A DNA stretch of 64,000 bases, taken from positions 1 through 64,000 of the forward strand of contig NZ_JAFWFN010000047.1 in NCBI RefSeq assembly GCF_017515565.1, in the 5' to 3' direction. Under the pieces are notes generated by a model, which saw only the letters and a list, made by a program, of their open reading frames with translations, did no database searches and was not told the origin of the DNA. The stretch comes from Halomonas sp. (GTDB lineage: Bacteria > Pseudomonadota > Gammaproteobacteria > Pseudomonadales > Halomonadaceae). Below, in pieces: positions 9,404 through 35,115 of this stretch; within the stretch, counting starts at the first letter, position 1; each line of letters starts with the position of its first letter. The translations under genes and the position numbers were made by a program.

Positions 9404-9417
9404 AAATTGAGGCCATC

Positions 9418-10761: not shown

Positions 10762-10863
10762 AGACTTAAGCGTGCCGTAAATTCATTTATATCTCTGCCA
10801 ACATAAACTTTACCCTGATCCAGAGGATACTCGTTGGCAGCTATAGATTTACGTATCGCTTGC

Positions 10864-11283
10864 TTAAAAGCCATCCAAATTATCATGAAGTCTATTAAGA
10901 TGAGATAGACGTCGCTGTCCCTCAAACCTCTTCCTCGTAACCATGTTAGCTGCAAGCTCACGAGAGGCACGCTCACCTTTTGACGTCAGGCCATACCCCC
11001 CCTTATCATCAAAAAATTCTGCGAAATCATACTCCAACAGAGATTTAATTAACTCAGATGTTTCTTCTGGCGAAATACCAAGCTTACTGGCAACACCTTG
11101 AATAGGCATAATTCCATCGGAAAGAAAAATAGACATAATCAATATGGAGTTTAGCGACAAATTTTCAAAGCCAGAATACTTCGAATCTAACCCAGCCACC
11201 TCTTGAAGCAGCCACCGCTTAGGATCATAAGCAGGATCCTCCGGGAAAATTTCTTTTGCCACATTCTCTTTTAATTTATACAT
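10864..11283 (-). CDS. Winged-helix protein downstream of brxL
   Basis: A 139-residue protein whose middle (roughly residues 45-110) looks like a winged helix-turn-helix. It reads LNSILIMSIFL, then a helix pair around GVASKLGISPEET, then a wing ending YGLTSKGERASREL. This resembles MarR/archaeal-type wHTH domains. It has its own AAGG site seven bases before the ATG and is separated from brxL by 70 AT-rich bases. It could be a regulator of the BREX operon or an unrelated cargo gene; BrxR-type regulators usually lie upstream, so its role is open. Base composition is clearly more AT-rich than brxL. Confidence 0.6.
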   Translation of the reverse strand: MYKLKENVAKEIFPEDPAYDPKRWLLQEVAGLDSKYSGFENLSLNSILIMSIFLSDGIMPIQGVASKLGISPEETSELIKSLLEYDFAEFFDDKGGYGLTSKGERASRELAANMVTRKRFEGQRRLSHLNRLHDNLDGF

Positions 11284-11353
11284 TTCGATACCTTAAAATT
11301 TAAGTAAAAAAAACGCACGCCTAGATGGCTGTACAAAGTGACAAAACCTAAAA

Positions 11354-13444
11354 TCAAACTCTATAAATATCTACATGCGTCTCAAGGCAACGCCTCATCG
11401 AGAGATCATAAGCACCTACGCCAAACCAAAGATCCGGTTTCTGGTAGAAATCGAGGCCACGGCCGATCTTAATCACCCAGCCGTTGTCTATGCGGATCTC
11501 ACGATCATGCAGATTTTCATTAATCAGGATCTTTAGCTCAATATCCAACTCCAGAAGACTCTGTTTAAGTTCCTCGAACCTATCATTAAGGGCCTTGATA
11601 TCAGAATCCTGATCATAACTAGTCGTTAATACTATCTTGCGCACTGTCGGTGACTTTATCACAGCCTCACAGAAACGTATGAAATTATGAACCTGGTGGT
11701 TGAGCCGAATGTAGGGATCTTCGATTTTCACCACCTTAGCGCCACGCAGATAGGGCTCTATCAAGGACTCGTAGCTATAGCCGGTGTCTCCATAGTGAAT
11801 AGTGAAGTGCTCTTCCTGAGGCTCAGGCCTGGAATCTGGCTCGTTAGGTAGCTCTAAGTGCTTAGGAGGCACACCTACTTCTGCCTCAGCAGAAGAACTG
11901 GCCTGCGGTCCGCCTTCAACCTCCTCGCCCTCCTCTCCTGCATGAATGTTGCGCCGGCTAGGCTCCTGGGTTGCCGTTGCAGTCCTAGATTCTGGACAGT
12001 AGACCACTACCTCTGCCCCTGAGGCAGAAAAATAGGAAAGGTTGATACGCGAGAACTCATCGTCGGTTTTTCGCTTGTTCATCTGCTCCTTAATCCGGCG
12101 ACGAGCCTCCACTGCATAGGCCACGTATTCTTCAAACTCCTCATCACTGGGCTTGCCATGAGGATGCAGGATCTTCAGGAACGCGCACAGCGTTTTCTTG
12201 ATGCCCTTCTCATCGCGACCCTCCACGGCATCGCCCAGTTTCACCCGACTGGAAACCTCCTCGTAACGGTTGGTCTGCTTGAACTGGTAGTGAAAGGCCT
12301 CGGCTAGGTAGTCGGTGATGAAGCCGTAGTTGCTAGTCAGGAACTCGCTGCTGTTTTTGGGCATTTCCCAGCCTGGTAAGTAGCAGGCAAAACGATCCTG
12401 CACCGCCAGGTCGAACTCCTTGGGCAACGGCTGGAAGAGGTCATAAACTTCGGAATTGACTATCTGCTCCACCGAAAGATCCAGGTTGCCAACATAGGCC
12501 ATGGAGGCCTGAGCAATCACCTCGACTCCGCGGGAGAAGCGGCCGTTGGCCATGAAATCCTTCATAATTTGGATGGTATCGGGATCCTTGATCTTGATCC
12601 CCCCCACCTCATCAAAGGCTACCGTATCCCAGTACCCTACCAAGCCGATCTTGCGACGCTGCACATTGTAAAACAGCGTCGCTTTGGTCGCTTGCCCCCC
12701 ACTGATCAGCGTCGAGTAGGGGGAGAACTCGCTGTAGAAGTACGACTTGCCGGTTCCCCGCGGGCCCAGTTCGATGAAATTGAAGTTGGGCTCAATCAGC
12801 GGCGCTAGGCGGGCGATGAAGTGAAACTTCACCCGCTTGGAAAGCTTGTTGGGTTCCAGTCCAACCGAGCGCAGGATCACATCCAGCCAATCATCACGAC
12901 TGAAGGCCTCACGACCCTCACAATATCGATCGAAATCAAAGCGACTAAGCTGGATCGGGCGCAAATCCTCAACGTAAAAAGCGTAGTCGTCGTCTTCAAT
13001 CTCATTGTAAGCAATGGTCACTTCGGCCCATAACCCACCCTGCAAAAGTCGCTCGTTGTCTCGGTAGAACTTTTCGCTAATAGCCACTCGACGGGAGTCA
13101 AAGTTTTCAAGTGCCGCCCAGTGGCGTCGATCTTTCTCAATGTAGTTGACGTGGACCTTGTCGATAAAGCGGTGCTTGCCTTTGGTAGCCACTCGAGACT
13201 GAGCGGCGTTGGCCTCGTTGGGCCGCACGTAATTGTCGTTGAGAGTGTCCAGTACGGCCTCCATGCCGGCCTGAATCTCCTCGGGCTCATCACTGGCACA
13301 GTAGCGCGCCAGCAGAAATTCGAGCACGAAGGTAGGCACGTTTGTGCCCTTTTTGATGCGATGCAGGAGATCCTTGCGCACCACCTTACCATCGAAGAAC
13401 GAGGTCAACTGTTGGTCGAGCTTATCCTGTTCAAACTGGCTCAT
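11354..13444 (-). CDS. brxL: BREX ATPase BrxL with C-terminal MIT_C-like domain
   Basis: A 696-residue AAA+ protein of the BrxL family, the late-acting DNA-binding motor of type 1 BREX. Residues 1-205 form the N-terminal domain. The Walker A motif is GPRGTGKS at 227-234 and Walker B is AFDEVGG around 276-282. The usual BrxL core runs to about residue 480. A low-complexity acidic linker follows. The last 141 residues (556-696) look like the phospholipase-D-like C-terminal domain of MIT proteins (motifs DPYIRL, LHDREI, GRGLDFYQ). I find no Lon-type Ser-Lys protease domain. The gene starts three bases after pglZ through the junction TAAACCATG, the same nine bases as at brxC/pglX. Family is secure; the C-terminal assignment is from motif memory. 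Confidence 0.9.
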   Translation of the reverse strand: MSQFEQDKLDQQLTSFFDGKVVRKDLLHRIKKGTNVPTFVLEFLLARYCASDEPEEIQAGMEAVLDTLNDNYVRPNEANAAQSRVATKGKHRFIDKVHVNYIEKDRRHWAALENFDSRRVAISEKFYRDNERLLQGGLWAEVTIAYNEIEDDDYAFYVEDLRPIQLSRFDFDRYCEGREAFSRDDWLDVILRSVGLEPNKLSKRVKFHFIARLAPLIEPNFNFIELGPRGTGKSYFYSEFSPYSTLISGGQATKATLFYNVQRRKIGLVGYWDTVAFDEVGGIKIKDPDTIQIMKDFMANGRFSRGVEVIAQASMAYVGNLDLSVEQIVNSEVYDLFQPLPKEFDLAVQDRFACYLPGWEMPKNSSEFLTSNYGFITDYLAEAFHYQFKQTNRYEEVSSRVKLGDAVEGRDEKGIKKTLCAFLKILHPHGKPSDEEFEEYVAYAVEARRRIKEQMNKRKTDDEFSRINLSYFSASGAEVVVYCPESRTATATQEPSRRNIHAGEEGEEVEGGPQASSSAEAEVGVPPKHLELPNEPDSRPEPQEEHFTIHYGDTGYSYESLIEPYLRGAKVVKIEDPYIRLNHQVHNFIRFCEAVIKSPTVRKIVLTTSYDQDSDIKALNDRFEELKQSLLELDIELKILINENLHDREIRIDNGWVIKIGRGLDFYQKPDLWFGVGAYDLSMRRCLETHVDIYRV

Positions 13445-13447
13445 GGT

Positions 13448-15979
13448 TTACACCGCATAGTCCGTTTCGAGGTCGATCTTGCTATAAATCGTATGGGTTC
13501 GAGGATCAAGGGCTTTTACACTGAACTTGCCCTCGAAATCCATCTGCATCTTAAGGGTCGTCTTAACCGACTCGCCCGCATGTAGCAACAAAGTCCCAGT
13601 AGCGGCGTTCACCGGGCCACCTATGCGAGCCTCACCGACAACATTACCCTTCTTGTCCTGCGCCTCCAGCAGAATCTCGTAGCTGCCCTCAATTGAGAAC
13701 ATGTCCGCAGTTTGCACAGCCACGTCAATGACCGGCACTCGGGTAGTAATGCGAGTGGCTCCATTCTTGTAACCAATCACCACGCTTGCTCGGGTCACAC
13801 TCGGCTGCTCGCGCCCCTTAATCTGCAGCCTAATCACAGGCAGCACACATTCCTGAAGCGAAAGCCCACCGTGGAAGTAGTCGAGACCGGCACGGTAAGG
13901 CACCAAGCTCAACGGTGCTGCTAGTCGCAAGGCATTACCACGCACACCAAGTCGCTGGGCTTCCATCACCAAATGGTGGTTATCGGCAGAGCCATCACCT
14001 AAGGCACAGCGATCATGCACCACCAGCCAGTCACCATGGGGCTTTGTAGCGATATCACCGGCATCGGCATGTGTATTCATCACAAAGCCATGGTCGGTAG
14101 CAATGACCACCTCATCGAAGCCTAGATCGATAAGACGATGCACCGCCATACGGATCCTCTTAAGCGCATTGGTAATCTCGGTAGGTGCCGTCTCTGGGTG
14201 ATTCTCGAAATGGCTATCGATCTCTACTGAGCGTAGCACCAGCAGATCGGTCTCCTCAGCGACTTCAGGTGCCTTATTACGCACAAAGTCCTCAAGTCGC
14301 ATTTCGGCAAAGCGTTGCCCATAGCGGCGACGGAAAGCCTCCATGCGCTGTGTCACGCTACCCACCGGCCGCTCTTCCAGAAGGGGGATCAATCCACTAT
14401 CACTCTTCTCGACGGTCAGCTGGTCGGCAGCCCCTGGAAGCAGGCTGGCCATCCCCACTGGGGTAATACTTGGCAGCTGCGCCAACGCCAGCTGCATCTC
14501 GATCACACCATCCTCGGCCAGCTGCTTCTCGAGCGCGACGCCAAGTTCATAGCGCAGAGCATCCACCATGAAGTACGCCACCCGATGGCCGTTCTGCTTG
14601 AGCCCTGGCGCGACCAGACGATCAAATACTTGGCCATTGGCCAGCATCCTAGGCAACGGCCAACCAGCCTTGCCGACCAAGCGCATGAAGATCATCTGAG
14701 CGGCATCGGTCAACTTGTCATAATGCTTGCGGGCACGCTGCATTAAGCCACTCATCTCACGTAGGGTATCCTGCCATTCATACTCGCTGACTGCCTGCTC
14801 AAACTCGCGGTGCAGACGATCCATCTCCCGCAACCTGCCCACATAGAACTGGACAAGCGACTCAAGGCTCTCAGTATGGTCTGACAGCTGCTGTTCAAGA
14901 TCCTCACAGCACTGAGCTAGCGCTGCCGCAGACTCCACCAGATACCACTTGGCACGGCTTTCACCCTTGGCAGACCAGACCGAGCGCTCATGCTGGCCTA
15001 AGATGTACCAAACCCTATCCAGATCATGTTGTTCGAAAGCAGCCACCGCCTGAAACAGGAAGGCCTGCTCCTCGAACGGGAAAGTATCGCGGACTCCCAG
15101 ATGACTGAGTCCCTCACAGTAGCGGGGCAGCTCCAGATCCTGCTCAATGGCCTCGGCCTTCTCGATATAGAGGTCCTGGGTACGCCGGTCGTTTCGCAGC
15201 GCCTCACACAGGGCCTCGATGATCGGTCGAGCGCTAGCCGGCGCCCGGGGCATATCGACCAGCGAATCGGGCAGTCTCTCGAGCAGGTCGAAGGCAAACT
15301 CACTGAAAAGCACGAAGCACCACAGCTCTTCGCTGATAGAGGGCCAGGTCTTGCCCCGGGTACGCAGCGTCAAGCCCAACGAGCGCTGGAAAAGCTCTCG
15401 CGCCTCGCTCACCCAGGCATTACTGCTCTTCAGAGCTTCCCGCTGGCTAGTGCTGGGCGCCAGCAGGCAGAGCAGTATGTCGCGACTGGACTCCGCCCCA
15501 AGCTGTGCACGCAAGTTCGGCCAGCCGACTCCACCACCTACGGCGTCGATAACTGCAAACTCTGGGCTCGAATTCGAATCATTGGCAAAAAGCTGTCGAA
15601 TCTCATCGCCATGCTCTGGCTTGGCCTTTAAGCACAGGGTCTGGTAACTGTCACCATCCCCATCGGGAAAGACCGTGCCGCAAGCGGCAAAAGGGGCAAA
15701 GGGGTCGATTTGTTTGTGCTCATCATCCAGCGGAGCAGCGACCGGTACATACACCAACAACCCTTCCAGCTCACCCCGCCCAAGGGCCTGAAGCCCACGC
15801 AGAGCTTGCTCTCGGCTCTCGATGCTACTCTCAGTGGCATCCACCACTTCTTGCCTCTCCGTAGCCAGCCCCTGGCATAGGCGTCGATAGCGTCGCTCGG
15901 GATCATAGACCACCACGACCGAGTGCTGGCGCAAGCGCTCCGTCAATACCTGCTCTTGAATGTAGGCCTCAATACTCAT
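13448..15979 (-). CDS. pglZ: BREX phosphatase-fold protein PglZ
   Basis: An 843-residue PglZ, the alkaline-phosphatase-superfamily component of all BREX systems. The hallmark metal-site motifs are present: FMVDALRYELG near residue 470 and ATDHGFVMN near 627. The start is taken at the ATG at 15979, with AGGAG nine bases upstream and the family-typical N-terminus (MSIEAYIQEQVL). The frame opens earlier. An ATG at 16108 overlaps the stop of the preceding ATPase gene in the ATGA pattern seen elsewhere in the operon, but the resulting 43 extra residues do not look like PglZ. It is essential for both phage defence and methylation in the type 1 systems studied; its exact activity here is unknown. 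Confidence 0.92.
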   Translation of the reverse strand: MSIEAYIQEQVLTERLRQHSVVVVYDPERRYRRLCQGLATERQEVVDATESSIESREQALRGLQALGRGELEGLLVYVPVAAPLDDEHKQIDPFAPFAACGTVFPDGDGDSYQTLCLKAKPEHGDEIRQLFANDSNSSPEFAVIDAVGGGVGWPNLRAQLGAESSRDILLCLLAPSTSQREALKSSNAWVSEARELFQRSLGLTLRTRGKTWPSISEELWCFVLFSEFAFDLLERLPDSLVDMPRAPASARPIIEALCEALRNDRRTQDLYIEKAEAIEQDLELPRYCEGLSHLGVRDTFPFEEQAFLFQAVAAFEQHDLDRVWYILGQHERSVWSAKGESRAKWYLVESAAALAQCCEDLEQQLSDHTESLESLVQFYVGRLREMDRLHREFEQAVSEYEWQDTLREMSGLMQRARKHYDKLTDAAQMIFMRLVGKAGWPLPRMLANGQVFDRLVAPGLKQNGHRVAYFMVDALRYELGVALEKQLAEDGVIEMQLALAQLPSITPVGMASLLPGAADQLTVEKSDSGLIPLLEERPVGSVTQRMEAFRRRYGQRFAEMRLEDFVRNKAPEVAEETDLLVLRSVEIDSHFENHPETAPTEITNALKRIRMAVHRLIDLGFDEVVIATDHGFVMNTHADAGDIATKPHGDWLVVHDRCALGDGSADNHHLVMEAQRLGVRGNALRLAAPLSLVPYRAGLDYFHGGLSLQECVLPVIRLQIKGREQPSVTRASVVIGYKNGATRITTRVPVIDVAVQTADMFSIEGSYEILLEAQDKKGNVVGEARIGGPVNAATGTLLLHAGESVKTTLKMQMDFEGKFSVKALDPRTHTIYSKIDLETDYAV

Positions 15980-16104
15980 TTGGATCACACTCCTATTCCC
16001 TGGCGTATCGCCTACCGAACCTATTGCCTGGCAACATATTTGAGAAGGTTTGTTGTCGCTCATAAACTGACCACAAACCGCTTTATGGCTTATATAAGCT
16101 CGCT

Positions 16105-17580
16105 TCATAAACCACAAAGCCTATGACTTACTGGTTTCAAACCGCCCTTGCGTCTAAGTCCATAACCGACCCTGTAGACATCTGGCAGATTAATCCGGCC
16201 ATCCTTTAGTCGCTCCATCAGCCCTAGTGAAACCAAGTCATCGAGCACACCGTCGGGTCCCTCATGGATATGCAGAGGGGGTAATCGAACGCTTTCGGCA
16301 TTGATACCCTGCTTTAGAGCAGCTAAAGAGCCTGCTGCTTTCCACTTTTGCAGGATATCGTCCATCTCGACTGGTACCGAAACGCCTCTAAGCGGTACGA
16401 GCAGAGTGCGTATCCAAGGGTAATCTTCCTCGATTTCATGCACGCGGATTCTCGAGGCCTCCTGCACGCCGCGTTTGATGCTTTCAAAATGCAGTGCCGT
16501 CTCCTGCTGTGCATGAGGGGAGTCTTCGGCCGCCTCACGCAAGGCGGCAAGGAAGCTGCGCGGACTGACTTCACTTCGTGAGTCCGCAAGATGGTTAGGT
16601 AGCCAAGAGTAAGGCAGCCCGCGTCGTTTGTCGCGCCCCATCCAAGGGCCCGTGATGGCATGAAACACCTGGCGTTGTATGCTTTCCTCAGCGCGCATTT
16701 TCTCCGGCACATGCCAGGCTTCATCGTCTTTCTGCCAAGTGATACCCGGCACGCACTCAATAACCCCTTCACGAAACTGCTCGCCACCCTTTTTAGCATT
16801 GGCAAGATATTGCCAGAGCAAGCCGTACAGGTCTCGGCGCAGCCACTCCAGCGTCACCTTTTGTGCCATCACCTTTGAGGCATCGGGGAAGCTGGTAACC
16901 GCCGCGTCCTCGAGTTGGTCGGGGCGAACGAAAACCTTGAGGCGTAGCGCTTGATAAGGCCGAAACTCGAGGACCATTCTCAGCAGCCCGCGCAGCAAGG
17001 CGTTCATCTTGTGCCAGTCGTCGGCACTGCGATCCAACGCATCAAACAGCACCAGGTGCATCTTCCCCTGCTGTTGAAGAGATTGATCGCATTCGTAAAG
17101 ATACTTTTCCAGCTGCTCTGGATGGCTGGCGAGCCACTCGATGCGCGCTCCCCAGCCGCTGAGAGCAACGAACTCAGCCGGTGCCTGCTCCCCCATCACC
17201 TGCTGAAAGATCACAGTCTGCCAGATACGTCGAGGATCACGGCCATCATCTAGCAGCTTGCTTAACGTGTCCTTGCTAGGAAATCCCCCCCCAGACGGAC
17301 GCTCGCTGAAACCGATGGTGACCACACACTCGGCTGGCATCCCTGCCGTCCTGCCAAGCAAGCCACGAAGCTTGTCGCTCTGTAGCGTGGCACACCAGAA
17401 GCTCTTGCCAGAACCACGAATGCCTTGAACCAGCATATTATTGGGGTTAAGCGCCTTGGCATGCACGGCGGGCAGGTAGAGGTGCTCGGCCAGCGGTTTT
17501 TCACCATGCAACGAAGTATCGGCCGGCAGCGCCGAGCGTATCGTCTCACGCAAAGACTGGGGAAAACGGTAAGCGCTCAT
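16105..17580 (-). CDS. P-loop ATPase inserted in the BREX operon
   Basis: A 491-residue predicted cytosolic ATPase. Walker A is GIRGSGKS at 53-60 and a Walker B-like LVLFDALDR lies at about 176-184, followed by a sensor-like arginine-rich region (KVFVRPDQLED). The C-terminal third reads like a small helical or winged-helix domain (LVSLGLMERLKDGRI). It resembles AAA/STAND-type ATPases found next to KGGVGR-type ParA proteins; I cannot name a narrower family. Its ATG overlaps the stop of the preceding ParA-like gene by four bases (ATGA, 17577-17580), so translation is coupled. It is not part of any standard BREX set known to me. Confidence 0.8.
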   Translation of the reverse strand: MSAYRFPQSLRETIRSALPADTSLHGEKPLAEHLYLPAVHAKALNPNNMLVQGIRGSGKSFWCATLQSDKLRGLLGRTAGMPAECVVTIGFSERPSGGGFPSKDTLSKLLDDGRDPRRIWQTVIFQQVMGEQAPAEFVALSGWGARIEWLASHPEQLEKYLYECDQSLQQQGKMHLVLFDALDRSADDWHKMNALLRGLLRMVLEFRPYQALRLKVFVRPDQLEDAAVTSFPDASKVMAQKVTLEWLRRDLYGLLWQYLANAKKGGEQFREGVIECVPGITWQKDDEAWHVPEKMRAEESIQRQVFHAITGPWMGRDKRRGLPYSWLPNHLADSRSEVSPRSFLAALREAAEDSPHAQQETALHFESIKRGVQEASRIRVHEIEEDYPWIRTLLVPLRGVSVPVEMDDILQKWKAAGSLAALKQGINAESVRLPPLHIHEGPDGVLDDLVSLGLMERLKDGRINLPDVYRVGYGLRRKGGLKPVSHRLCGL

Positions 17581-18887
17581 GATCTCTCCTCAACGGCAGT
17601 AGCCAGCAACCATTGGTCAAGTGACTCCATAAAACGACCAAGGGATTCCTGAGCCGTACGCGCATCAATTCCACCCTGTGCAGGGTCAAACTCCTGAAGC
17701 GCACGATGCCAGAAGATCGGCCAAGGAACATGTGGAGCGGCCTCATCGTGCAGATCGAAGGAGAATGCCTCCAGGTCTTCGGGTTCGGCTTGATCGTAGA
17801 GCTGGTCACGGAAAACATCCCAGGCATGTTCCCGAAACCGGCGCAGGTACTCATCTCGCCCCGTTTCGGGCACCAGGCTGGCCACCATCTGCAAGCGATG
17901 ACGAAACGCCTCCACGTTGGGGTGGCGATTCCAGTGTTCAAATAGCATCCGGTAGCCAGCCCAAGTCTGGCCTGAGTCGATGCCAAACAGCAGGGTATCG
18001 GCATCCATACGAGTGACTAGTACCGCCGCGATATCATGCAAACCTGCACGGCTATCCAGAATGACCACATCCGGAGCGTGGCGCTGCTCCAGTGACTCCA
18101 CCAAGCGGTTGAGACGCTCTGCCCAGGACATCGGCTGGCTGCCGCTGAATTCGGCATAGCAGCGCGCCAGCTTGGGAAGATACCCACCCGTCAATTGGCC
18201 ATAGGCTGGCACCACCATCACCTCGCCCGCGAGATCCTGCGCTAGCGGGCTGATGCCGACAAGCTCAGGCTCGATGAATGCCGCCTGACCCACGCCATCT
18301 TCCACAAACCAGTCCACAATCCCGAAGTCCGGGCGGTGTTGTTCTGATAGCAGGGTGCTGCTGACACCTGGCGATTCCAAGTCGAGATCGAACACCAGCA
18401 CTCTCTTGCCCTGCTCGGCCAAGTGCCACGCCCAATTGACCAAAGCGGTGGAACGCCCAACGCCGCCCTTGATGCCATAGAAAGTCACGCGAGGATTAGT
18501 GGTGGTTCGCGCCAGCGAGCCGCGCATCCAGTCCTGACCGATCACCTGGCGGTCCAGCAGGAAAAGCCCTTCGCGCTCTGGCTCATCGCCGAGTGGTCGT
18601 CTTTCCGCCAGGATGACGTCGGGCTCAGCCAACTCATCCTCGAACAGCAACGCGCGCTGCGAAGGAAATCCGTAGCGACCCAGCGAGTCAGTTAGCGCCT
18701 GGCGATAGCCATCCAGTGCAGCCGTATCGAGCTCGTCGCGGCGTCCACTCAGCACCGGGCGAATGCGCCCGCGCAAGTCGCGCACCAAGGTGATCTTGGT
18801 GGGAATCTCGCGTCGCCAGCGCAGCGAGACCTCGACCGCACGTTGCAAAGCGTCGTGAAAGAGCACCGTTGCCTTTTGATTATTCAT
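17577..18887 (-). CDS. ParA/MinD-like ATPase with KGGVGR motif
   Basis: A 436-residue protein with an N-terminal domain of about 130 residues of unknown type. It then has a SIMIBI (ParA/MinD-class) P-loop: KGGVGRSTA at 140-148, where canonical ParA has KGGVGKT. A DxD-like VFDLDLESPG follows, and a later DVVILDSRAG is the Walker B-like strand. The lysine before the GG is the deviant signature lysine, while arginine replaces the second lysine of the P-loop, as in the annotated KGGVGR-variant group. The ATG at 18887 overlaps the TGA of the HEPN-like gene by one base; a TTG at 18923 is possible but less likely. Such ATPases usually work as nucleotide-dependent dimers; a role within BREX is inference. 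Confidence 0.82.
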   Translation of the reverse strand: MNNQKATVLFHDALQRAVEVSLRWRREIPTKITLVRDLRGRIRPVLSGRRDELDTAALDGYRQALTDSLGRYGFPSQRALLFEDELAEPDVILAERRPLGDEPEREGLFLLDRQVIGQDWMRGSLARTTTNPRVTFYGIKGGVGRSTALVNWAWHLAEQGKRVLVFDLDLESPGVSSTLLSEQHRPDFGIVDWFVEDGVGQAAFIEPELVGISPLAQDLAGEVMVVPAYGQLTGGYLPKLARCYAEFSGSQPMSWAERLNRLVESLEQRHAPDVVILDSRAGLHDIAAVLVTRMDADTLLFGIDSGQTWAGYRMLFEHWNRHPNVEAFRHRLQMVASLVPETGRDEYLRRFREHAWDVFRDQLYDQAEPEDLEAFSFDLHDEAAPHVPWPIFWHRALQEFDPAQGGIDARTAQESLGRFMESLDQWLLATAVEERS

Positions 18888-19306
18888 CACAGCACCCCAT
18901 CGAGCATGGCCTCTTGCAGGCAAGTACGCGCCCGTCTTGCTCCCAGTTGGTGACGCGATACGCTGGCTGGCTCGATATCGGCGCGCGAAGCGTAGCGGTC
19001 GCTGATATTCCAGCCGTCGAAAGGTGCCGGTACTCGACTCAGGATAGCGGCATAGTGCGCCCCACCGCGGTCACTCGCAAACGTCTGAAACTCGTCCCAC
19101 AGTCTATTAATATGCACCTGATGACGTCGCTCCTCAGGCGCACCGCTCGGTCTCAGCGTCATTCCCAGCCCCAGCATCACCGCCTTGAGTGAGCACTCCG
19201 CTGAAAGCCCCAACAGATGGTCGGCATTGGCCAGGCGCTGCGCAGTAAGTAGCAGTTCACCATCCTCCCAGTGGCGCTCGGCGGCATCGGCAAAATCTGG
19301 ATTCAT
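18887..19306 (-). CDS. HEPN-like small protein in the BREX operon
   Basis: A 139-residue, mostly helical protein. The segment HWEDGELLLTAQRLANADHL, followed by LGLSAECSLKAVMLGLG, matches the general pattern of HEPN domains (helix with H-x-D and a second helix with A-E-x-x-L-K). An R-x4-H arrangement occurs in ERRHQVH around residues 80-86, but its placement does not prove the HEPN RNase site. Its ATG overlaps the pglX stop by four bases (ATGA, 19303-19306), so it is translationally coupled to pglX, and the next gene overlaps its stop. It may be a partner or toxin-like effector of the adjacent ATPases; this is inferred only from context. Confidence 0.65.
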   Translation of the reverse strand: MNPDFADAAERHWEDGELLLTAQRLANADHLLGLSAECSLKAVMLGLGMTLRPSGAPEERRHQVHINRLWDEFQTFASDRGGAHYAAILSRVPAPFDGWNISDRYASRADIEPASVSRHQLGARRARTCLQEAMLDGVL

Positions 19307-22300: not shown

Positions 22301-23085
22301 GTGGTGCCGCCGGTGGCATTAAACCACTGGCGACCCAGGGTGTTGTCGACCAGGAACTCCACCACATAGCGCGGGGTAAAGAACTGATTACGCACCGCCA
22401 ACTCGCGACTGTTGCGCGGGGCCTGGCTGGCCTTGCGCATCGCTTTTCGCTCTTCCTGGCTATTGAAGTACTGATAGATCCAGCCGATGGTCTCGTCCAG
22501 TGCCCACAGCGGCCCGATCTCATGATCGTTGAGCAGCTCGAGCAGCGCATTTAGGGCCGTCTCACGTGGGAAGAGCCGCCCCTGAGGAGCGAAGCGGTCG
22601 AACAGCGCCGGCAGGTCGATGGCGAACTCATCAAACAGGCTGAACAAGAAGGTCTGGTAGGCCTCGCCGGTCTCACCCAGCGCGGTTCCCGCCAGGTGGC
22701 GATAGAGCTCGAAGGCCTGGGACTGAGTGCCCTGACTCACCGCCGGCAGCAGCAAGCCACGCGCCTCCATCATCAGCAGCGCCGCCAGGCGGTTGAGCAC
22801 AGTAAAGGCCTGCTCGCGGATGATGCGGTCAATGGCTGCCTGGCGCTGGCTCTTGCCATCACCTGCTAAAGCTAAGTAATGTGCCAGGGTCTCCCGCAGA
22901 AGGGTTGCGGTATGGCGTTCTCGGTCACTTAGATGGGTCAGTCGCTCAAGTTCAGTCACTTCACCCGTCTTAGGGTCGAGGCCATAGTCCTGCTGTAGCT
23001 GTAACGTGAACTCCTCGGTCAGCCGCTTACGGCAATCATTGACAAGATCTCTAAGACGACCACGCGTCGCTTGATCAAAGGCCAT
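19303..23085 (-). CDS. pglX: BREX adenine-specific DNA methyltransferase PglX
   Basis: A 1260-residue N6-adenine methyltransferase that marks host DNA in BREX. Motif I (DPACGSMHFG) lies near residue 294 and motif IV is NPPF at 535-538. The N-terminal 290 residues and the C-terminal region after about 960 are the conserved PglX parts. The region between about residue 540 and 955, the expected target-recognition part, is encoded by strongly AT-rich DNA unlike its flanks. It starts three bases after brxC. No frameshift is seen, so the gene looks intact. The modified site cannot be read from the sequence. Confidence 0.95.
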   Translation of the reverse strand: MAFDQATRGRLRDLVNDCRKRLTEEFTLQLQQDYGLDPKTGEVTELERLTHLSDRERHTATLLRETLAHYLALAGDGKSQRQAAIDRIIREQAFTVLNRLAALLMMEARGLLLPAVSQGTQSQAFELYRHLAGTALGETGEAYQTFLFSLFDEFAIDLPALFDRFAPQGRLFPRETALNALLELLNDHEIGPLWALDETIGWIYQYFNSQEERKAMRKASQAPRNSRELAVRNQFFTPRYVVEFLVDNTLGRQWFNATGGTTPLRDSCQYLLVKPDEQPEASIKLRDPRTLKLLDPACGSMHFGLYAFDLFLQIYRDAWQWEKQYGPGTLDVSTQPEDGFEPLCHTYSGEKAFLRDVPRLIIEHNIYGVDIDPRAAQIASLALWLRAQRAWHEADVKAQQRPDVGQGNVIAAVAPPAEKELRVAFMARLDSQDAELFEKTLQMLKGLPELGILLRAEKELPALIRQVYVGKGIDLFAEEEQETWQKAEKRLRHALVEFSDETSATYQSRLFAQDALQGLRMIDLCRETFDVVVMNPPFGESSKSTKSYLSSGYPVSKNDIYAAFLQRGCELLSDNGKIGAITNKTGFLLSSFAKWRERLFANKFSLLAACDLGFGVLDSAMVETMMYVVSGESYNESDRSIFIRAVADKDKSRWISDAVSAVNSGDALDKNIWLRNVSEFSSLPSFPICYWVSDSFLRLFKRVNSFSPSHGHVYQGIATGDNFRFLRCAWEVCKRNGVSDPWVAYAKGGESEKWVSDLSLRVNWFNDGAEIKENARACYGSASRTVKNEDIFFKEGVTYTQVTVKGFFSRALPKGCVFDMKGPSVQIKENPYIGLGVFGSMPFSAMARIVTDSRQWHPTSIMNLPFPDLNAEGKGKIKNLVEALVKEAVKKYKIDERSSFFVTPFVESPNAWRIQDWQHSIDEIVAESYGVGLREFVDLDKIFCSIVDDEEDVEEGELQLGDQCILFLTYSVGVAMGRFDWRLATGEREAPPEPDPFEPLPTNSPGMLPDSAEPYHRHAGILVDDSGHEHDLPRLMADVLQTVDVDVGEDLRYWLRRDFFKYHLQQYSKSRRKAPIYWPLATASGSYTLWLYYPDLTDQTLFTAVNDFLDGPNGKLTQIEAELANLRSAGANRSHDDEKRLEELSDFRNELADLRDMLLELAPGYKPNHDDGVQITAAPLWALVRHKPWQKVLKETWDKLEQGDYDWAHLAMAYWPERVREKCITDKSLAIAHDLEHLYAEPEQVSKKTRGRKKNTGSGA

Positions 23086-23088
23086 GGT

Positions 23089-26000
23089 TTACTCCTTGCC
23101 GCTGTGTGCTGGGGCCTCGCCAAGGGCTAGGTCGAGTTCGAAGGCATGGGCGTATTCTAGCTCGCCACGCAGTTTCTGTAGCTCGCGAATCATCGCGTCG
23201 AGCTCTTTTAGTGAAGTGATACGTGGGCGTGCTTTGAAATGGCGGCTAAGCACTTTCTTTTTTTCCTGGCTTCCCTCAGAGGTTTCCTCCTCAAGCTCTT
23301 TCTGCTCCTCAAGGATACGCTCCTGCTGGCGCTCTCGGCCTACCCGCTCAATCCGCTCCTTGAGAGCGGCAACCTCGCCCTGCAGCTCATAGTCGCGATT
23401 GACCAGGGCGCGCAGGCCTTGAATATCGGGTTTCACTTCTAATAGCAGCTCGTCCAGGCGCCCCAGCAACTCCTGCTGCTCCTGGTTGGTCAGCTCGGGC
23501 CACTCTGGCACCCGCTTTAGTTCCTGCTCGGCCTGGCGCAAGCGCTGTTGCTGAGCCTTCTGCATTCGCTCTGTGGCAGCACCCGCCTTGCCACGCACCT
23601 CTGTCAGCCGGGTATTGAAGTCCGAACTGCTGCGATAGGCTTCTTCGGTCGCTAAGCGGACATTGAGATCCTGCAGCACTTCAGACAGCTCAGTCTTGAG
23701 CTCGCCGGGAATACCGCTGGAGGGCAGCCCCTCAATCATCTGTGAAAGTGAGCGCAACTCCTTGAGAGTGGCCTCGAGCCCTTGTTCCAGTGCCTTCTTG
23801 ACATCGCCAGCCCAGACGAGATTATTGAATAGCGACGACTCCTCACGCCCCAGCCGCTGGGGGGCATCGGAGCCGTCAGTGAGCTGAATATCGGCCAAGT
23901 CACGGCTCATCGCCTCCAGGCGATCGTCCCCCACCATCCCAAGCATCTGCAGCCGGCCAGCCAGAGAGGCATACCGCTGCTGTAGTTCAGGGAAAAGTTT
24001 GGTGGCGGCCTTGCTGATGGCGTCCTCGAGCGGCACCACCATATCGCCACTAAGCTCGGTAAGACGGCTCGACGCCAGCGCCAGCATCGCCATGGAGGGG
24101 CGGTCCTCACGCAGGGAGATGCCGACGTTTTTGAAAGTATTATTGGTCTTGAGGGCTTCGATGGCTTGCTGACCGTTGACCGTGACCTCGCGGCCGGAGA
24201 CCTTAAACTTGATCACCCCGCCGAGCAGCATGGACGCCACCAGATAGCGAAGAGTGTCCTGAGACCAGCCATAAGGGGCATCGCTGAAGCGGTTGGCCAG
24301 ACTTTTGCCCTCCACCACGCCAACACGGTCAATATAATCACGAATACTGACCAGCGCACGGTGGTCGACATTGATGCTGGTTTGGCCACCCTGCTGAGTC
24401 ACCAGGCCCAACGGATCAAGCTTCGAGGTGATGCCGCTCAAGTTGCCAACCTTCAGAAAGCGCTCCGCCAGATCGCTCTGCACCCGCTCTGGCGCTTCAC
24501 CATAGCGGCTGAACACCTGGCCAGCAACGGCCGCGAGCTGCTTGCGCGCCGCTTCGCCCAGATCAGCAGCCAGGCTGTCCACAGCGTTGGCCTGACCACG
24601 AAAGATAAACGACCCACCCTGTAGACTGCGCTTGAGTAAACGCTGTAAGTCTGCATTCAAACGTCGAGCCCGATCCACCTGGGCACGGCAGTAATCGCGC
24701 ACCTCCTGGTCGGGGTCATTGCGGAACTTGAGATCGACTTCCTGACAGCGGTAGATATCAGCGGTGAGATCATCAATCTCAGGCGATTTGCGGCCCACCA
24801 GGTAGATCATGTTCTCGTTGGTCTTCACACGAGAAGCGTCCTGCAGACGGGAACGGGCCGCCTCATAGTCAGTGGGCTCCACCAGCTCGACCACAGTCTG
24901 GATCGGATGCCGGTCACCGGCCAGTAGTATGGGTAGTCCCTCAGGCCCCTGGGTCTTAAGACCACTTTGTACCGAGAGTGACCCATGCAGCTGAACGCTG
25001 GGCAGCGGCGAAAACACCTCTTCCAGTGACTTGTTGAGAATTCGCTTGAGTTCGTTGCCGCGCAGTGGAATCTGGCTGCGCTCCTGCTCGATATCGTTGA
25101 GCTTTTCGCTGAAGAAGCACAGGAAACCATCCTGCTCGCCGAAGGGCACGATGGGGTCGGAGATCATCGCCTCGATGGCGGCATTAACCTCTTCCACCTG
25201 GCTACCGTTGGTCGCATCGGAGTGGATCAGGCTGGCCACGTTTCGCCGCGTGATTGGTAGGTTACCGAGTATCTGCAACACCGCCACCGTCTTGGCCACC
25301 CGCTGGTGAATTTCGTCATCTCGATAGCGAATCTTGGTGACGGTGTTAACCGCCTTGTGCCAGTTGGAGAAACCGCGCTCGATATCCTTTTCCAGGGCAT
25401 CGTAGAGCGTTACCGTATTGGCCAACCAGCCAACCGGCTGCTGGGCCACCGGCACTCGCTTGCCCTCGCCTTCGATCAGAATGTCTTGGATCACCTTGAT
25501 GGCAGAGCGCAGGCCGATGCCACCGGTCGAGCGCGCTAGAGCACCCAGCAGGTGGAGCAGGATATCGAAGTGGGCAGGCAGGAAGGGATAGAGATCAATG
25601 AAAGTCTGGCGGTCGAAGTCTGCCCCGTAGGCGCGGGCATCCTCGAGCTTGGTGTTGTGGCGCAGGGCCTGGCCATGCTGATCGAACAGCTCGCCCAGCT
25701 GCTTGGCTCCCTCGGGAGACTTGCCCAGCAGGCGGGTGTAGCAGATCTCTTTGATGTCATCCGCTTCTAGGTCGATGCCGATGGGGAAGCGGTCTTTGAG
25801 CTTGAACAGCTCCGGAGAGTTCAGCGAAGCGCGGGGGTCATCCTCGGTTAGAGTCTGCTGACCTGTGCCAATCAGCCACACCTTACCGTTGCCCTGAGCC
25901 TTGATGTTCTTGGCCAGGCCGTCGAGGTTCAGGATCAGCTGCTGGCGGGCACCCACGTACTGGCCGACCTCATCCACGATGAAGATCACATACTCCTTGC

Positions 26001-26763
26001 CGGAGTGCTCACGCACAATATCGAGCATCTCCTGTACGCGATCATTCTCGAAGCGGATCACCTCACTGGTCGCCGTGCTGAACGAACCAGGGGAGGTGAA
26101 AAGCGTTGGATAGAGGTCGTGGGCGATCTCCGGGATTAGGCTGTCGACCACCAGTTCATCGTTGCGGTAGTCGCTCCAGGCCTCACCGCCAGTCTTTTCC
26201 CCGAACAGCCGCAGGAACTCATCAAAGCGGCTTTCCTGCTTCAGGCGACGCTCCAGGGCGGCCACTTTGAGATTGCGGGAGTACCCAGCCCACTGTAGCA
26301 CCTTGTAGTAGAGGACACTGGAGACCTCCTCCATGGTGGCCCCACTGACCTGCTCGGTGGCCAGATCCAGCATCAGTACGGCAGCGGGAAAGCGCTTGGA
26401 AACGGTGCTAAGCAGCTGCCGGGTGGTGGTATTCTTCAGGCGATCTTGCAGATGCTGACGGAAAGGAGTGCCATCGATGGTCACGCTGTCGTCGAAGGCC
26501 AGACCCAGGTACTTGGTAAAGGAACTCTTACCCGAGCCATAGAAGCCCGAGACCCATACCCCGACCTCGTTCTCGCCACCGGCCTCCATAGCGGCCTGCA
26601 TCTTGGTTAGCAGTTGATTGAACTGCTCATCGATGGCATCGGTGACCACGTACTCAGCGATCTCCTTGCGTAAACGTTCCTCCTGGGAAACGCCATAAGC
26701 GATTACTTTCTCGATGCTGCGATAGATATCGCGACTTGTATCGAATAGCTGCTTGATTTCCAT
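23089..26763 (-). CDS. brxC: BREX large ATPase BrxC (PglY-like)
   Basis: A 1224-residue P-loop ATPase, the largest BREX protein and part of its core complex. Walker A is GFYGSGKSS at 73-81 and a Walker B-like VIFIVDEVGQ lies near residue 260. The C-terminal third is coiled-coil rich (about residues 1040-1190, many E/Q/R/L heptads). The start ATG at 26763 follows brxB by 15 bases. Length and motifs match the type 1/5/6 BrxC family. Confidence 0.95.
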   Translation of the reverse strand: MEIKQLFDTSRDIYRSIEKVIAYGVSQEERLRKEIAEYVVTDAIDEQFNQLLTKMQAAMEAGGENEVGVWVSGFYGSGKSSFTKYLGLAFDDSVTIDGTPFRQHLQDRLKNTTTRQLLSTVSKRFPAAVLMLDLATEQVSGATMEEVSSVLYYKVLQWAGYSRNLKVAALERRLKQESRFDEFLRLFGEKTGGEAWSDYRNDELVVDSLIPEIAHDLYPTLFTSPGSFSTATSEVIRFENDRVQEMLDIVREHSGKEYVIFIVDEVGQYVGARQQLILNLDGLAKNIKAQGNGKVWLIGTGQQTLTEDDPRASLNSPELFKLKDRFPIGIDLEADDIKEICYTRLLGKSPEGAKQLGELFDQHGQALRHNTKLEDARAYGADFDRQTFIDLYPFLPAHFDILLHLLGALARSTGGIGLRSAIKVIQDILIEGEGKRVPVAQQPVGWLANTVTLYDALEKDIERGFSNWHKAVNTVTKIRYRDDEIHQRVAKTVAVLQILGNLPITRRNVASLIHSDATNGSQVEEVNAAIEAMISDPIVPFGEQDGFLCFFSEKLNDIEQERSQIPLRGNELKRILNKSLEEVFSPLPSVQLHGSLSVQSGLKTQGPEGLPILLAGDRHPIQTVVELVEPTDYEAARSRLQDASRVKTNENMIYLVGRKSPEIDDLTADIYRCQEVDLKFRNDPDQEVRDYCRAQVDRARRLNADLQRLLKRSLQGGSFIFRGQANAVDSLAADLGEAARKQLAAVAGQVFSRYGEAPERVQSDLAERFLKVGNLSGITSKLDPLGLVTQQGGQTSINVDHRALVSIRDYIDRVGVVEGKSLANRFSDAPYGWSQDTLRYLVASMLLGGVIKFKVSGREVTVNGQQAIEALKTNNTFKNVGISLREDRPSMAMLALASSRLTELSGDMVVPLEDAISKAATKLFPELQQRYASLAGRLQMLGMVGDDRLEAMSRDLADIQLTDGSDAPQRLGREESSLFNNLVWAGDVKKALEQGLEATLKELRSLSQMIEGLPSSGIPGELKTELSEVLQDLNVRLATEEAYRSSSDFNTRLTEVRGKAGAATERMQKAQQQRLRQAEQELKRVPEWPELTNQEQQELLGRLDELLLEVKPDIQGLRALVNRDYELQGEVAALKERIERVGRERQQERILEEQKELEEETSEGSQEKKKVLSRHFKARPRITSLKELDAMIRELQKLRGELEYAHAFELDLALGEAPAHSGKE

Positions 26764-26778
26764 TTGTTAATTTATTCC

Positions 26779-27351
26779 TTAACCGCCGACGTGAACCGAG
26801 CGATAGTTGCCATCCACGGGGTAGAAGCCGAGAAATTTGAGGCGCGTCTTGCCAGTGCGCACGCCTGGGTAAAGAAACACCGTCGGAACGTGGAAGCGCC
26901 CCTGCAACTGCCCCTCGATGACACCGATGCGCATATAAGGATGTAGCGCTTCGAGATCGGTCACCAGTAGAATGCTACGAGCGTTCCCTTCCAGCTCTGA
27001 TAGTCTGGCTTCCAGGCGCTTCTGTAGCGCGCCGTTAGCTATGGTATTGGCCAGCGAGGCGTTAGTTTTTTTCCAGTCGTGGGGATTGCGCTTATCAGCA
27101 GCGAGCCAGATATTGCGCATCTTGGCCTGAGTAAGTATCTCCTCGACCACATCGGCGATGGAGAAGGTATGCACATCCCACCCCTCGTTGCGCAGTCGGC
27201 TCTGCCAGGCCGGTAGATGGCGTTTAACTGCTAAGATCTGTTCGGGCCGAAACACCAAGTAGAAAATCGGCTCGAAGCTGGCATGACCGAATTCACGACC
27301 ATGACGCACCCGCTCCATTAGCTCGTTGAAATCAGTATCTAGCGAGGACAT
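26779..27351 (-). CDS. brxB: BREX protein BrxB (DUF1788)
   Basis: A 190-residue DUF1788 protein. The C-terminal half shows the family features: a hydrophobic strand ILLVTDLEALHPYMRIG, the helix with GQLQGRF, and VFLYPGVRTG with the final GFYPVDGNYRSVH. The ATG at 27351 is preferred over the adjacent TTG at 27354. It overlaps the end of brxA by 20 bases. BrxB is a core BREX component needed for defence; its biochemical role is not settled. Confidence 0.9.
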   Translation of the reverse strand: MSSLDTDFNELMERVRHGREFGHASFEPIFYLVFRPEQILAVKRHLPAWQSRLRNEGWDVHTFSIADVVEEILTQAKMRNIWLAADKRNPHDWKKTNASLANTIANGALQKRLEARLSELEGNARSILLVTDLEALHPYMRIGVIEGQLQGRFHVPTVFLYPGVRTGKTRLKFLGFYPVDGNYRSVHVGG

Positions 27352-28117
27352 CAATTACCTCCTCCATTTTTTTGTACTGCCAGCTGATTTGGGTAACGTC
27401 CCCGGCGGTCTGCATGATTAGATGGCCTTCGAGCGACAGCCGCTTGAACTGCTCGCGAACATCTGATCGCTCCAGGCCGAAGAGCTGCCAATCAAGGTGA
27501 CTAAGCACTTGGTTATCGCCCAGTCCCTGGAACTTGAGGTCATACGCCACGTAAGTCGCGACCCGCGTTGACAAGCGAACGGAGTAGAGCCGACGAGATC
27601 CGCTACGCTTTTTCTCAATCAAGCCGAAGTCGGCACAGGCACTAAGCAGGTAGCCCGTCATGCGCCTGACAGTGCCTTCGGCCCAGGGCTTCTGGGTCTT
27701 TCCTTCGCGAACAGCGTTTTCGATAAACTCCAGCGCATCCTCGCGGCTCAAACTATCGCGCCCTGAGGTGTAGAGTGACCAAAACACCTCTCTTATGAAG
27801 TCGGCAAGAATGCTATTGGCACGGGCGGTGTGCAGCAACATTACCTGCAGGCGCTCGTCGCGTTCGAGCTGAGGCAGCAGCCGCTTCAGGGCTTCTACCA
27901 CCCCGGGGCGGCGAAGGTAACGAGGAGCGAAGCACTCGCGGACGATATTATCCAAGCGGCGAGCGGAGATCAGCGGGAACTGGCCCGACTCAAGTGCTTT
28001 GGCAAACAGCTGAGGGGATCGCATGCCAGGTTCATAGAGTTCGAACAGGCGATGGGTCTCTTCCGCCAGGCCGAGACCGGCCTGCAGCTGAGTGGTATAG
28101 AGATGCGCTTGGCTCAC
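27332..28117 (-). CDS. brxA: BREX protein BrxA (DUF1819)
   Basis: A 261-residue DUF1819 protein, a small helical, DNA-binding BREX component. The start is placed at the GTG at 28117, which overlaps the brxE stop by four bases (GTGA), giving MSQAHLYTTQ. A further GTG at 28144 is in frame but lies inside brxE. Family features include FWSLYTSGRDSLSREDAL and the C-terminal DWQLFGLERSDV region. Confidence 0.88.
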   Translation of the reverse strand: MSQAHLYTTQLQAGLGLAEETHRLFELYEPGMRSPQLFAKALESGQFPLISARRLDNIVRECFAPRYLRRPGVVEALKRLLPQLERDERLQVMLLHTARANSILADFIREVFWSLYTSGRDSLSREDALEFIENAVREGKTQKPWAEGTVRRMTGYLLSACADFGLIEKKRSGSRRLYSVRLSTRVATYVAYDLKFQGLGDNQVLSHLDWQLFGLERSDVREQFKRLSLEGHLIMQTAGDVTQISWQYKKMEEVIDVLARY

Positions 28118-28611
28118 TGTGCCTCCCGCAGGTAGGGATAACACTGAACACCGCGTCGATGCGCATCAAGATAGAGGCCCGCCATGGTGGCCAGCGGTGT
28201 TTTAAGCGAGCCGTTGAACTCGCCGACAAGCATAGGGCCTGCCTCAGCCTGCTGATTGTTGGATAGCGCCTCGAGACGTGCCAGCGCACTCTCTGCGGAG
28301 TCAGTGTGGGCAAATAGCGCCTCACCTCGTTCACGGTCGGCGATCAGCTGCGCCGCCCCTTGCTCGTAATGCTCGGGCATGTGAAAGAGGTGAAGGGTCC
28401 GCCCTACCCCGATGTGATCGTCATGGATACGCCGCGCAGCCTCCAGCACTCCCTGATACTGGGCCTGGTGAGCAGAGCGTCCAAAAACGGGCGTCAGAAA
28501 GGCCAGGGCCGACGAGCCGAAGAAGTGGGAACCCCACCAAGCGGGAGACTGCTCTCCCAAGTAGCCTACGAGCACGCGTAGCTCGGCCAGAGTGATTGCA
28601 TTCTCGATCAT
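28114..28611 (-). CDS. brxE: BrxE-like protein, first gene of the BREX operon
   Basis: A 165-residue protein. The N-terminal half carries a conserved-looking block (LRVLVGYLGE, WWGSHFF, LTPVFGRS) followed by AARRIHDDHIGVGRTLHLF, which I recognise as the BrxE pattern of type 6 BREX. The ATG at 28611 has AGGG five bases upstream. It opens the operon and overlaps brxA. brxE is not part of the canonical type 1 set, which makes this operon a mixture. The identification is from memory of the family pattern and should be checked by profile search. Confidence 0.75.
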   Translation of the reverse strand: MIENAITLAELRVLVGYLGEQSPAWWGSHFFGSSALAFLTPVFGRSAHQAQYQGVLEAARRIHDDHIGVGRTLHLFHMPEHYEQGAAQLIADRERGEALFAHTDSAESALARLEALSNNQQAEAGPMLVGEFNGSLKTPLATMAGLYLDAHRRGVQCYPYLREAQ

Positions 28612-28647
28612 GTTGACCCTATCTTTCGTATATACAAGAACGCTAAT

Positions 28648-28674
28648 GACGAATTAAATTTCGTCCCGCGAAAT
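28648..28674 (-). promoter_or_regulatory. Overlapping palindromes upstream of brxE
   Basis: Two inverted repeats share sequence: GACGAA-N6-TTCGTC (28648-28665) and ATTTCG-N5-CGAAAT (28658-28674). They lie 37-63 bases upstream of the brxE ATG in an AT-rich stretch. This is the expected place for an operator or for a small RNA hairpin controlling the operon. A possible TTGACC -35 element reads further upstream on the minus strand, but the -10 is unclear. Confidence 0.4.
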
Positions 28675-28841
28675 AATATTCGCCATGTTACGTCATGCAG
28701 ATAGGGCGTGCGAGGGTAAGGTCAACCACTGAGGCCATCCTATTATGAGAATTGGCCATAGACAGAAGGCGAATAAGTACCTGGTTAATGACTGATGCTT
28801 ATGCAGACTTGTAGTGCATTAGCTATTACGGCCAGCCCTTA

Positions 28842-29881: not shown

Positions 29882-30062
29882 AACAAACCCTCTTAAGTAA
29901 CAATCTGTAACATGCTATGTGGCATCACTTTCATCGTCAACGAATTAATATTTTTTCTCATAATAATCAATATATTACTTTAAATTTAATATCGAATTGA
30001 CGGCATATTAGATATCACTATGCCTCTCACGTACCGAGGGCATCGGATCAAAAACACCATCA

Positions 30063-35052: not shown

Positions 35053-35067
35053 CAACAGACCCAACGA

Positions 35068-35105: not shown

Positions 35106-35115
35106 ATATAATCTT

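Follow-up and report, generated by a model that had tools for sequence, protein, structure and literature searches.

What kind of bacteriophage exclusion (BREX) system begins with brxE, as type 6 does, and ends with brxL, as type 1 does? The question is raised by an operon in a 64,000-nt stretch of Halomonas sp. DNA (NCBI RefSeq assembly GCF_017515565.1, contig NZ_JAFWFN010000047.1, positions 1 to 64,000; the whole stretch is called the window here). A preliminary description had proposed either a new BREX subtype or a recombinant of types 1 and 6, and had counted three extra genes between pglX and pglZ among its marks. With a probability of roughly 0.7, we consider that the operon belongs to a distinct BREX lineage, broad but sparse in its spread, with brxE first, an HKD-type brxL last, an exchanged PglX and a putative PDC-M28 guard carried in a slot.

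Gene content of the operon

Ten genes, rather than the eleven first counted, occupy 28611 to 11354 of the minus strand in the order brxE-brxA-brxB-brxC-pglX-M28A-M28B-M28C-pglZ-brxL, each at the place where it had been described:

28114..28611, minus strand: brxE, first operon gene, 165 amino acids (aa); NCBIfam NF033447 136 bits (cut-off 40)
27332..28117, minus strand: brxA, GTG start; PADLOC 335 bits, Pfam BrxA 80.6
26779..27351, minus strand: brxB; PADLOC 348 bits
23089..26763, minus strand: brxC, large ATPase; PADLOC 1832 bits, NF033441 854 (cut-off 400)
19303..23085, minus strand: pglX, adenine methyltransferase, fused form; PADLOC 1443 bits, NF033452 (BREX-1) 737 (cut-off 500)
18887..19306, minus strand: M28A, small HEPN-like protein, 139 aa; PADLOC PDC-M28A 154 bits
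17577..18887, minus strand: M28B, ParA/MinD-like ATPase with a KGGVGR P-loop; PDC-M28B 492 bits, NF047398 193 (cut-off 90)
16105..17580, minus strand: M28C, P-loop ATPase (Sll1717/KAP-like); PDC-M28C 610 bits
13448..15979, minus strand: pglZ, ATG at 15979; PADLOC 1188 bits
11354..13444, minus strand: brxL; PADLOC 927 bits, BrxL N-terminal and ATPase domains

Nine of these genes match PADLOC profiles, while brxE has no PADLOC match and was identified by NCBIfam. Its naming as a BrxE family member thus held up in the profile search, yet it is not the BrxE of type 6, as it reached only 18.7 bits against the type 6 equivalog NF033448 (cut-off 80). In a 2026 survey (PMC12839542), whose main text mentions BrxE once, it is restated that the protein occurs in type 6 alone and that its function is unknown. 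Among 20 aligned sequences of the family, invariant columns include R12, E20, H63, D64, H74, P79, E83 and Y147, and a sequence search of PDB gave no match to BrxE at E values of 0.1 and 1.

Most junctions are as tight as first reported: neighbouring genes overlap by 4 nt at brxE-brxA, pglX-M28A and M28B-M28C, by 20 nt at brxA-brxB and by 1 nt at M28A-M28B, and gaps of 15, 3 and 3 nt separate brxB-brxC, brxC-pglX and pglZ-brxL. Only M28C-pglZ departs from this, with a gap of about 125 nt, because pglZ starts at ATG 15979, as set by the profile match and relatives, and not at 16117, where a longer frame opens. The M28B frame likewise opens at 18923, with its ATG at 18887. Scans for sigma-70 promoters and terminators returned no more matches than in shuffled sequences.

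PglZ, a BrxC-type ATPase and a modification gene stand together in one operon, as in the BREX superfamily, and the type 1 gene set (brxA, brxB, brxC, pglX, pglZ and brxL) is complete. The ending is not that of type 6, since the window has brxL, and neither brxD nor brxHI was found in the operon with PADLOC, Pfam and NCBIfam profiles; the type-1-like core behind brxE was thus correctly recognised. BrxL carries a MIT_C (PLD/HKD-like) domain at C-terminal residues 555-695 (Pfam) and is taken to be the variant named BrxL-HKD by Rakesh and Krishnan, whose text counts it in 1030 of 2913 BrxL taxa (PMC12839542). The window PglZ lies below the cut-off of every matching NCBIfam PglZ type model, the best being BREX-6 (172.6 of 400 bits), and fails the type 1A and 1B profiles (TIGR02687, 96.0 of 270.35; NF033450, 89.6 of 400 bits); one solved PDB relative was found at E 0.001 (9nv3).

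A lineage with brxE in front and brxL behind

Searching plasmids with tblastn gave three near PglZ relatives, one from Thioflavicoccus mobilis and one from each of two Hymenobacter plasmids. Each is preceded by brxE and followed by brxL, the BRD67 copy being fragmented. Three PglZ proteins (window, Thioflavicoccus and Hymenobacter monticola) were aligned, and the alignment was used to scan a collection of 84,980 species, in which 381 stretches matched the pattern and 108 encoded a relative; the best 80 were kept as loci L045-L124. Their organisms include Pseudomonadota, Thermodesulfobacteriota, Chloroflexota, Planctomycetota, Bacteroidota and Acidobacteriota. As the scan query was PglZ alone, gene order provides an independent test.

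In 29 loci, more than 400 nt lie between the locus edge and the start of brxA, and brxE was found in 28 of these (L035, found through BrxE itself, was not counted). For a second set of 29 loci, comprising 28 too short upstream plus L048, which had no call, brxE was sought at the genome level with the L122 genome excluded. A BrxE-family gene over the cut-off was present in 27 of the 28 genomes searched, on the same strand and 8.8-21 kb upstream of pglZ, its position being tied to pglZ by contig coordinate matching. With L048 belonging to both sets, brxE was detected in 55 of 56 distinct testable loci, and the remaining 24 of the 80 fell outside the test. Downstream, brxL followed pglZ in all 70 loci with more than 1.5 kb of sequence, within 51 nt in 68 of them and after an insert in L072 (1.7 kb) and L077 (0.7 kb). 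None of the 70 had brxD, and the only brxHI candidates were helicase matches of 26 and 30 bits (L094, L122), too weak to count. The search for the same gene order that had been proposed at the outset thus showed it to recur across phyla in loci of this PglZ clade.

This recurrence bears directly on the proposed type 1/type 6 recombinant, which would have taken brxE from type 6 and the remainder from type 1. The gene content does blend the textbook signatures of both types, but the order recurs across many phyla, in all but one of the 56 loci that could be tested. Scores against profiles built from lineage members (bits) were compared for type 6 (Pseudanabaena galeata L030, Aulosira laxa L031 and Azospirillum TSH58 L034), type 1A and the lineage member Thioflavicoccus. 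Type 6 reached 36-41 for BrxB (type 1A, 16-26; Thioflavicoccus, 211), 244-268 for BrxC (155-178; 1376), 423-445 for PglX (312-366; 866) and 153-190 for PglZ (101-109; 812), and on all four it was also far below Hymenobacter. All four proteins are thus remote from both types, with a weak leaning toward type 6, and none is close to type 1A. Type 6 BrxE proteins are very distant, reaching 9-21 bits on the lineage BrxE profile, and type 6 has no BrxL to compare. A mosaic of types 1 and 6 is not supported, because no core gene is close to either type in the PglZ and BrxC trees or in the profile scores, and we regard it as very improbable.

The trees comprised 35 of the 80 loci together with L035, the window, Thioflavicoccus and Hymenobacter monticola, rows without a long enough frame being dropped. 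The 38 lineage rows of the PglZ tree fell on one side of a branch against types 1A, 1B and 6 with a Shimodaira-Hasegawa-like approximate likelihood ratio test (SH-aLRT) support of 98, as did the 33 lineage rows of the BrxC tree with a support of 100. In the unrooted BrxC tree, another branch (96) parts types 1A, 1B and a Halobaculum plasmid from type 6 and the lineage; type 6 is not thereby its sister, since this tree has no root. Of the two readings first offered, the subtype is thus borne out to the extent that gene content and the PglZ and BrxC trees set the lineage apart from types 1 and 6, and the recombinant is not.

In order, the operon resembles type 6 in sharing brxE-brxA-brxB-brxC-pglX-pglZ and in the higher scores of type 6 than of type 1A on four lineage profiles, and differs in that type 6 ends with brxD-brxHI without brxL and scores low with its BrxE and PglZ. 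Type 1 with a type A PglZ (E. fergusonii pEFER L032, Synechocystis L033, Azotobacter L194) has brxA, brxB, brxC, pglX, pglZ and brxL in the same order, with extra genes inserted among them; a WYL or CopG regulator stands in place of brxE in the three annotated loci of type 1A, and type 1 PglZ falls in another clade and its pglX is a single gene.

Whether these differences warrant a separate subtype depends on how widely type 1 is drawn. The operon could be counted as plain type 1 in a wide sense, brxE then being optional: homology extends over the whole core, PglX passes the NCBI BREX-1 model, the main text of the 2026 survey groups types 1, 5 and 6 and argues that types 5 and 6 are subsets of type 1 (PMC12839542), and the Halobaculum operon, with both brxE and brxL, groups with type 1A. 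Set against this are the near-constant brxE of the lineage, which none of the three annotated type 1A loci has, and the clade-specific PglZ and BrxC. We consider the wide type 1 reading possible but doubtful. Automatic tools would probably file the operon as type 1, because the PADLOC profiles match closely and the NCBI models name its PglX BREX-1.

Several observations weigh against a separate lineage or limit its reach. The BrxE family is present in 3 of 369 genomes of the class, the window's own included, so the lineage is not common, and the locus L057 (Rhodocyclus) consists of a pglZ-brxL pair with no brxE or other genes in reach. The trees are quick and unrooted, and their references are few (type 6, three; type 1A, seven for PglZ and five for BrxC; type 1B, three and two; type 5, none), four of the 1A references being labelled by best match only. 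When two type 2 rows were added to PglZ as an outgroup, the group needed two changes, and Thioflavicoccus, Hymenobacter and Desulfobulbus, flagged for long branches, fell toward types 1 and 6. The lineage brxA profile did not discriminate (type 6, 10-21 bits; type 1A, 3-16 bits). With so few references, quick unrooted trees and 35 of the 80 loci in use, any placing of type 6 relative to the lineage is provisional; with no type 6 PglZ over its cut-off in 299 Pseudomonadota genomes, the comparison draws on three plasmid loci. Finally, having both brxE and brxL is not enough to define the clade, because the Halobaculum operon (L195), an archaeal BREX with two pglX genes, has them too. This operon groups with type 1A in the trees and outscores types 1A and 6 on the lineage profiles (brxE 52, brxA 59, brxC 290, pglX 506), which makes its own place ambiguous.

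With these points included, a distinct lineage is still the reading that we favour. A stronger form of it, in which the lineage is a distinct multi-phylum type with an obligate BrxE, and in which the methyltransferase acts either as one protein or as an enzyme of methylating (M) and specificity (S) proteins whose specificity changes by cassette or subunit, we hold at little better than even odds. No report of a brxE-brxL BREX lineage was found among the main texts of open papers searched, and it is apparently a branch of BREX without a name so far. A near-constant BrxE in a broad lineage with a type-1-like ending makes it a natural system for finding the role of this protein.

Two side observations concern the same genes. 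In L036 (G196:C160), a BrxE-family gene is followed by brxA and by a brxB most like that of type 6, at a contig end. A second slot lies in the gap between brxC and pglX, which holds a gene of about 900 codons in L035, L076 and L123; the one scanned (L076) encodes a UvrD-like helicase.

Fused, split and exchanged forms of pglX

The most surprising feature of the lineage is a split methyltransferase. Among the 80 loci, pglX could be read across its middle in 63 (17 do not span the site), and it was one gene in 35 and two genes in 28, for example in L045, L046, L053, L085 and L117. All 11 complete references of types 1A, 1B and 6 have a single pglX. In all 28 split loci the first part stops at window residue 628-633, and the second begins at residue 635-642 in 25 of them and at 659 in three. 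The two genes overlap by exactly 4 nt in 17 pairs and by 1 nt in five, and in 18 of these 22 a Shine-Dalgarno-like word lies just upstream. Two genes stand between M and S in Thioflavicoccus, and a 1.4-kb gap in L110.

Frameshifts, pseudogenes or assembly errors could also divide a gene, and L114 and L119 are indeed fragmentary, while six of the 28 split loci lack a tidy 1-nt or 4-nt overlap. A cut at so constant a site, together with the 22 exact overlaps and their ribosome-binding-like words, makes such artefacts highly improbable as the source of the split.

The split site maps to residues 606-616 of pEFER PglX, about 45 residues before the reported boundary between methyltransferase and target recognition domain (TRD). 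According to the texts consulted, the methyltransferase domain of Salmonella PglX spans residues 227-661 and its TRD 662-849 (PMC11341690), and the methyltransferase domain of E. coli BrxX extends to residue 650 (PMC11842806). The NPPF motif of the window PglX lies at residue 535. The first protein of L045 carries the methyltransferase domain; none of five second proteins scanned had a Pfam family over the cut-off. The C-terminal domain of PglX is described as resembling Type I specificity subunits (PMC11341690), and the split loci resemble HsdM/HsdS in having separate, overlapping genes for a methyltransferase and a specificity-like protein. They differ from Type I systems in standing in a BREX operon and in the alternation of fused and split forms, and the two proteins may form the complex of one enzyme. 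We propose, as an inference, that they work as M and S subunits. No report of a split pglX turned up in the BREX paper texts searched, though no literature search was dedicated to it.

On a PglZ tree of 57 rows, 24 of them split, fused and split forms require 12 changes, at least 9 of which are forced by well-supported branches. Six close fused/split pairs, two of which share L035, aligned at the DNA level over the first 1.6 kb of pglX (2.2 kb in one) and over the last 0.55-0.92 kb, with the middle unaligned in all six. The window gene has the same pattern against its closest relatives, Halomonas alimentaria and Salinicola, to which the alignment ends at 21470, restarts at 20169 and reaches the pglX stop:

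20170..21469, minus strand: exchanged pglX middle, covering the end of the methyltransferase domain and the target recognition region

The GC content of this middle is 39.5%, compared with 59.7 and 58.4% on its flanks. Strong divergence without exchange is compatible with the alignment alone; the simplest reading of the sequences is a cassette exchange of the DNA-reading part of PglX. With pglX split in nature, the parallel between BREX and Type I restriction enzymes can be put to a direct test, and the question arises of whether S proteins can be exchanged to re-aim methylation.

The pglX-pglZ slot, its PDC-M28 cargo and the mobile element

The three extra genes had been put forward as a mark of the subtype, and the limits of identity to the closest relatives speak for a different role:

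16033..19302: cargo slot between pglX and pglZ, where identity to Halomonas alimentaria and Salinicola is interrupted

Identity ends at the last pglX base (19303) and returns at 16032, 53 nt before the pglZ start. In the same place, Halomonas alimentaria has GmrSD plus Fic and Salinicola has GmrSD. The distance from pglX to pglZ exceeds 250 nt in 28 of 71 lineage loci with both genes visible. A survey by representatives, in which part of the slot genes were scanned, gave GmrSD-like nucleases (clusters of 11 and 3), SoFic, HEC-07-like and AbiL-like proteins, an OLD-type ATPase with DUF4276, Schlafen/AlbA and RmrA-like proteins. Nested PARIS, GmrSD/BrxU and other auxiliary effectors in BREX loci are described in the main text of the 2026 survey (PMC12839542), and the window resembles those loci in having extra defence genes between core genes. 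The words ParA (as a whole word), KGGVGR and Sll1717 are absent from that main text. It does mention HEPN genes that stand alone near BREX, so the supplement may cover part of the trio. No paper on PDC-M28 or KGGVGR was found in the open literature searched.

All three window proteins strongly match the models of the PADLOC candidate PDC-M28 and occur in its order, M28A, M28B and M28C; M28C lies slightly under the cut-off of NF047389 (67.6 of 75). Every position of the M28B KGGVGR P-loop is conserved in at least 97% of 35 rows, and M28C has a conserved GxxGxGK P-loop and FDALD motif but gave no match in a PDB sequence search at E 0.1 and 1. The label HEPN-like for M28A is weak: the window protein reached 21.1 bits with Pfam HEPN_AbiV (cut-off 27.1), and two of 18 proteins matched HEPN and two HEPN_AbiV at E 0.01. 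H65 is present in 36 of 36 rows and R104-Y105 in 97%, but no conserved R precedes H65 by four to six residues, and a canonical Rx4-6H RNase site is accordingly unsupported.

Among 369 genomes of the class, 11 had an M28C match, as did 27 among 398 of the phylum; these counts include weak matches and the own genome. Up to 10 kb on each side of 28 strong genome loci, several of which end at contig edges, none had a BREX gene of types 1A, 2 or 6 or of the lineage beside M28. Contexts were read for 16 of 20 plasmid M28C records (all but H3, H4, H19 and H20). Three contexts (Thiodictyon, Sphaerotilus and Streptomyces NBC_01334) have M28 inside BREX-2 operons, at two different positions; eight have complete trios elsewhere, some beside integrases; and in five Streptomyces contexts M28C alone was recognised. 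M28C was not found in phage records or, in one exact-pattern-based protein scan, in viral contigs, nor did megablast find the Enterobacter M28 trio in E. coli genomes. In five genome loci (L168-L172), M28C has a long C-terminal extension, which in the three scanned (L168, L170, L172) contains metallophosphatase (calcineurin-like phosphoesterase) and NACHT domains.

The trio might nevertheless be a working part of BREX, such as a loading or sensing complex. It overlaps pglX by 4 nt, the same module occupies the same slot in a Thauera metagenome-assembled genome (L052), and three BREX-2 operons contain it. Yet L052 is the only one of the 80 lineage loci with the trio in its slot, the 28 genome loci, several of them cut by contig ends, have no neighbouring BREX gene of types 1A, 2 or 6 or of the lineage, and the nearest relatives fill the slot with GmrSD, with or without Fic. 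This makes a working part unlikely, and from the slot occurrence, self-standing loci and slot boundaries we reject the view that the trio defines a subtype. Judged from these loci, the three genes are a self-standing, exchangeable module that also occurs outside BREX and in BREX-2; PDC-M28 is mostly outside BREX in the loci read, in contrast to its nested position in the window. The slot and the recurrent module show how BREX operons of different types take on second-line defences.

Built on the lineage and its gene order, the module boundaries, the exchanged pglX middle, the split forms, the slot and the element described below, all read from sequence, the molecular functions in the operon would be as follows. 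PglX would use its middle and C-terminal part to read an asymmetric DNA motif and would mark host DNA with N6-methyladenine, BrxA, BrxB and BrxC would form a DNA-bound complex, and unmarked phage DNA would be acted on by the PglZ nuclease and the BrxL ATPase-nuclease. BrxE, a near-constant small protein whose gene overlaps brxA, is probably part of the DNA-bound complex. The DNA-reading half of PglX would be swapped as a cassette and, in many relatives, be made as a separate HsdS-like protein via coupled translation. PDC-M28, placed in the pglX-pglZ slot, would be expressed together with the operon and form a second line of defence of its own, most likely a guard acting on BREX failure or inhibition.

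The operon as a whole is cargo of an element integrated at a tRNA-Pro gene:

9205..35163: mobile element carrying the operon, 25,959 bp, with a 48-bp exact repeat of the tRNA-Pro 3' part at each end
9346..10761, plus strand: tyrosine integrase of the element; Pfam Phage_integrase 87 bits, PHROG integrase

The repeats lie at 9205-9252 and 35116-35163. In two genus relatives (L213, 94% identity, and L214), the flanks are contiguous with one repeat, as at an empty site. The integrase lies near one end, a primase-like gene and a weak terminase-like match (41 bits) lie toward the other, and the element resembles a phage satellite or an integrative element. A 139-aa gene at 10864-11283, on the operon strand and 70 nt after brxL, has no Pfam, PADLOC or PHROGs family match. 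Further copies of the tRNA-Pro repeat were observed 9-87 kb from this tRNA on its contig in six genus members (G777, G781, G784, G788, G796 and G800), which points to other elements there, and the site has thus probably been used repeatedly.

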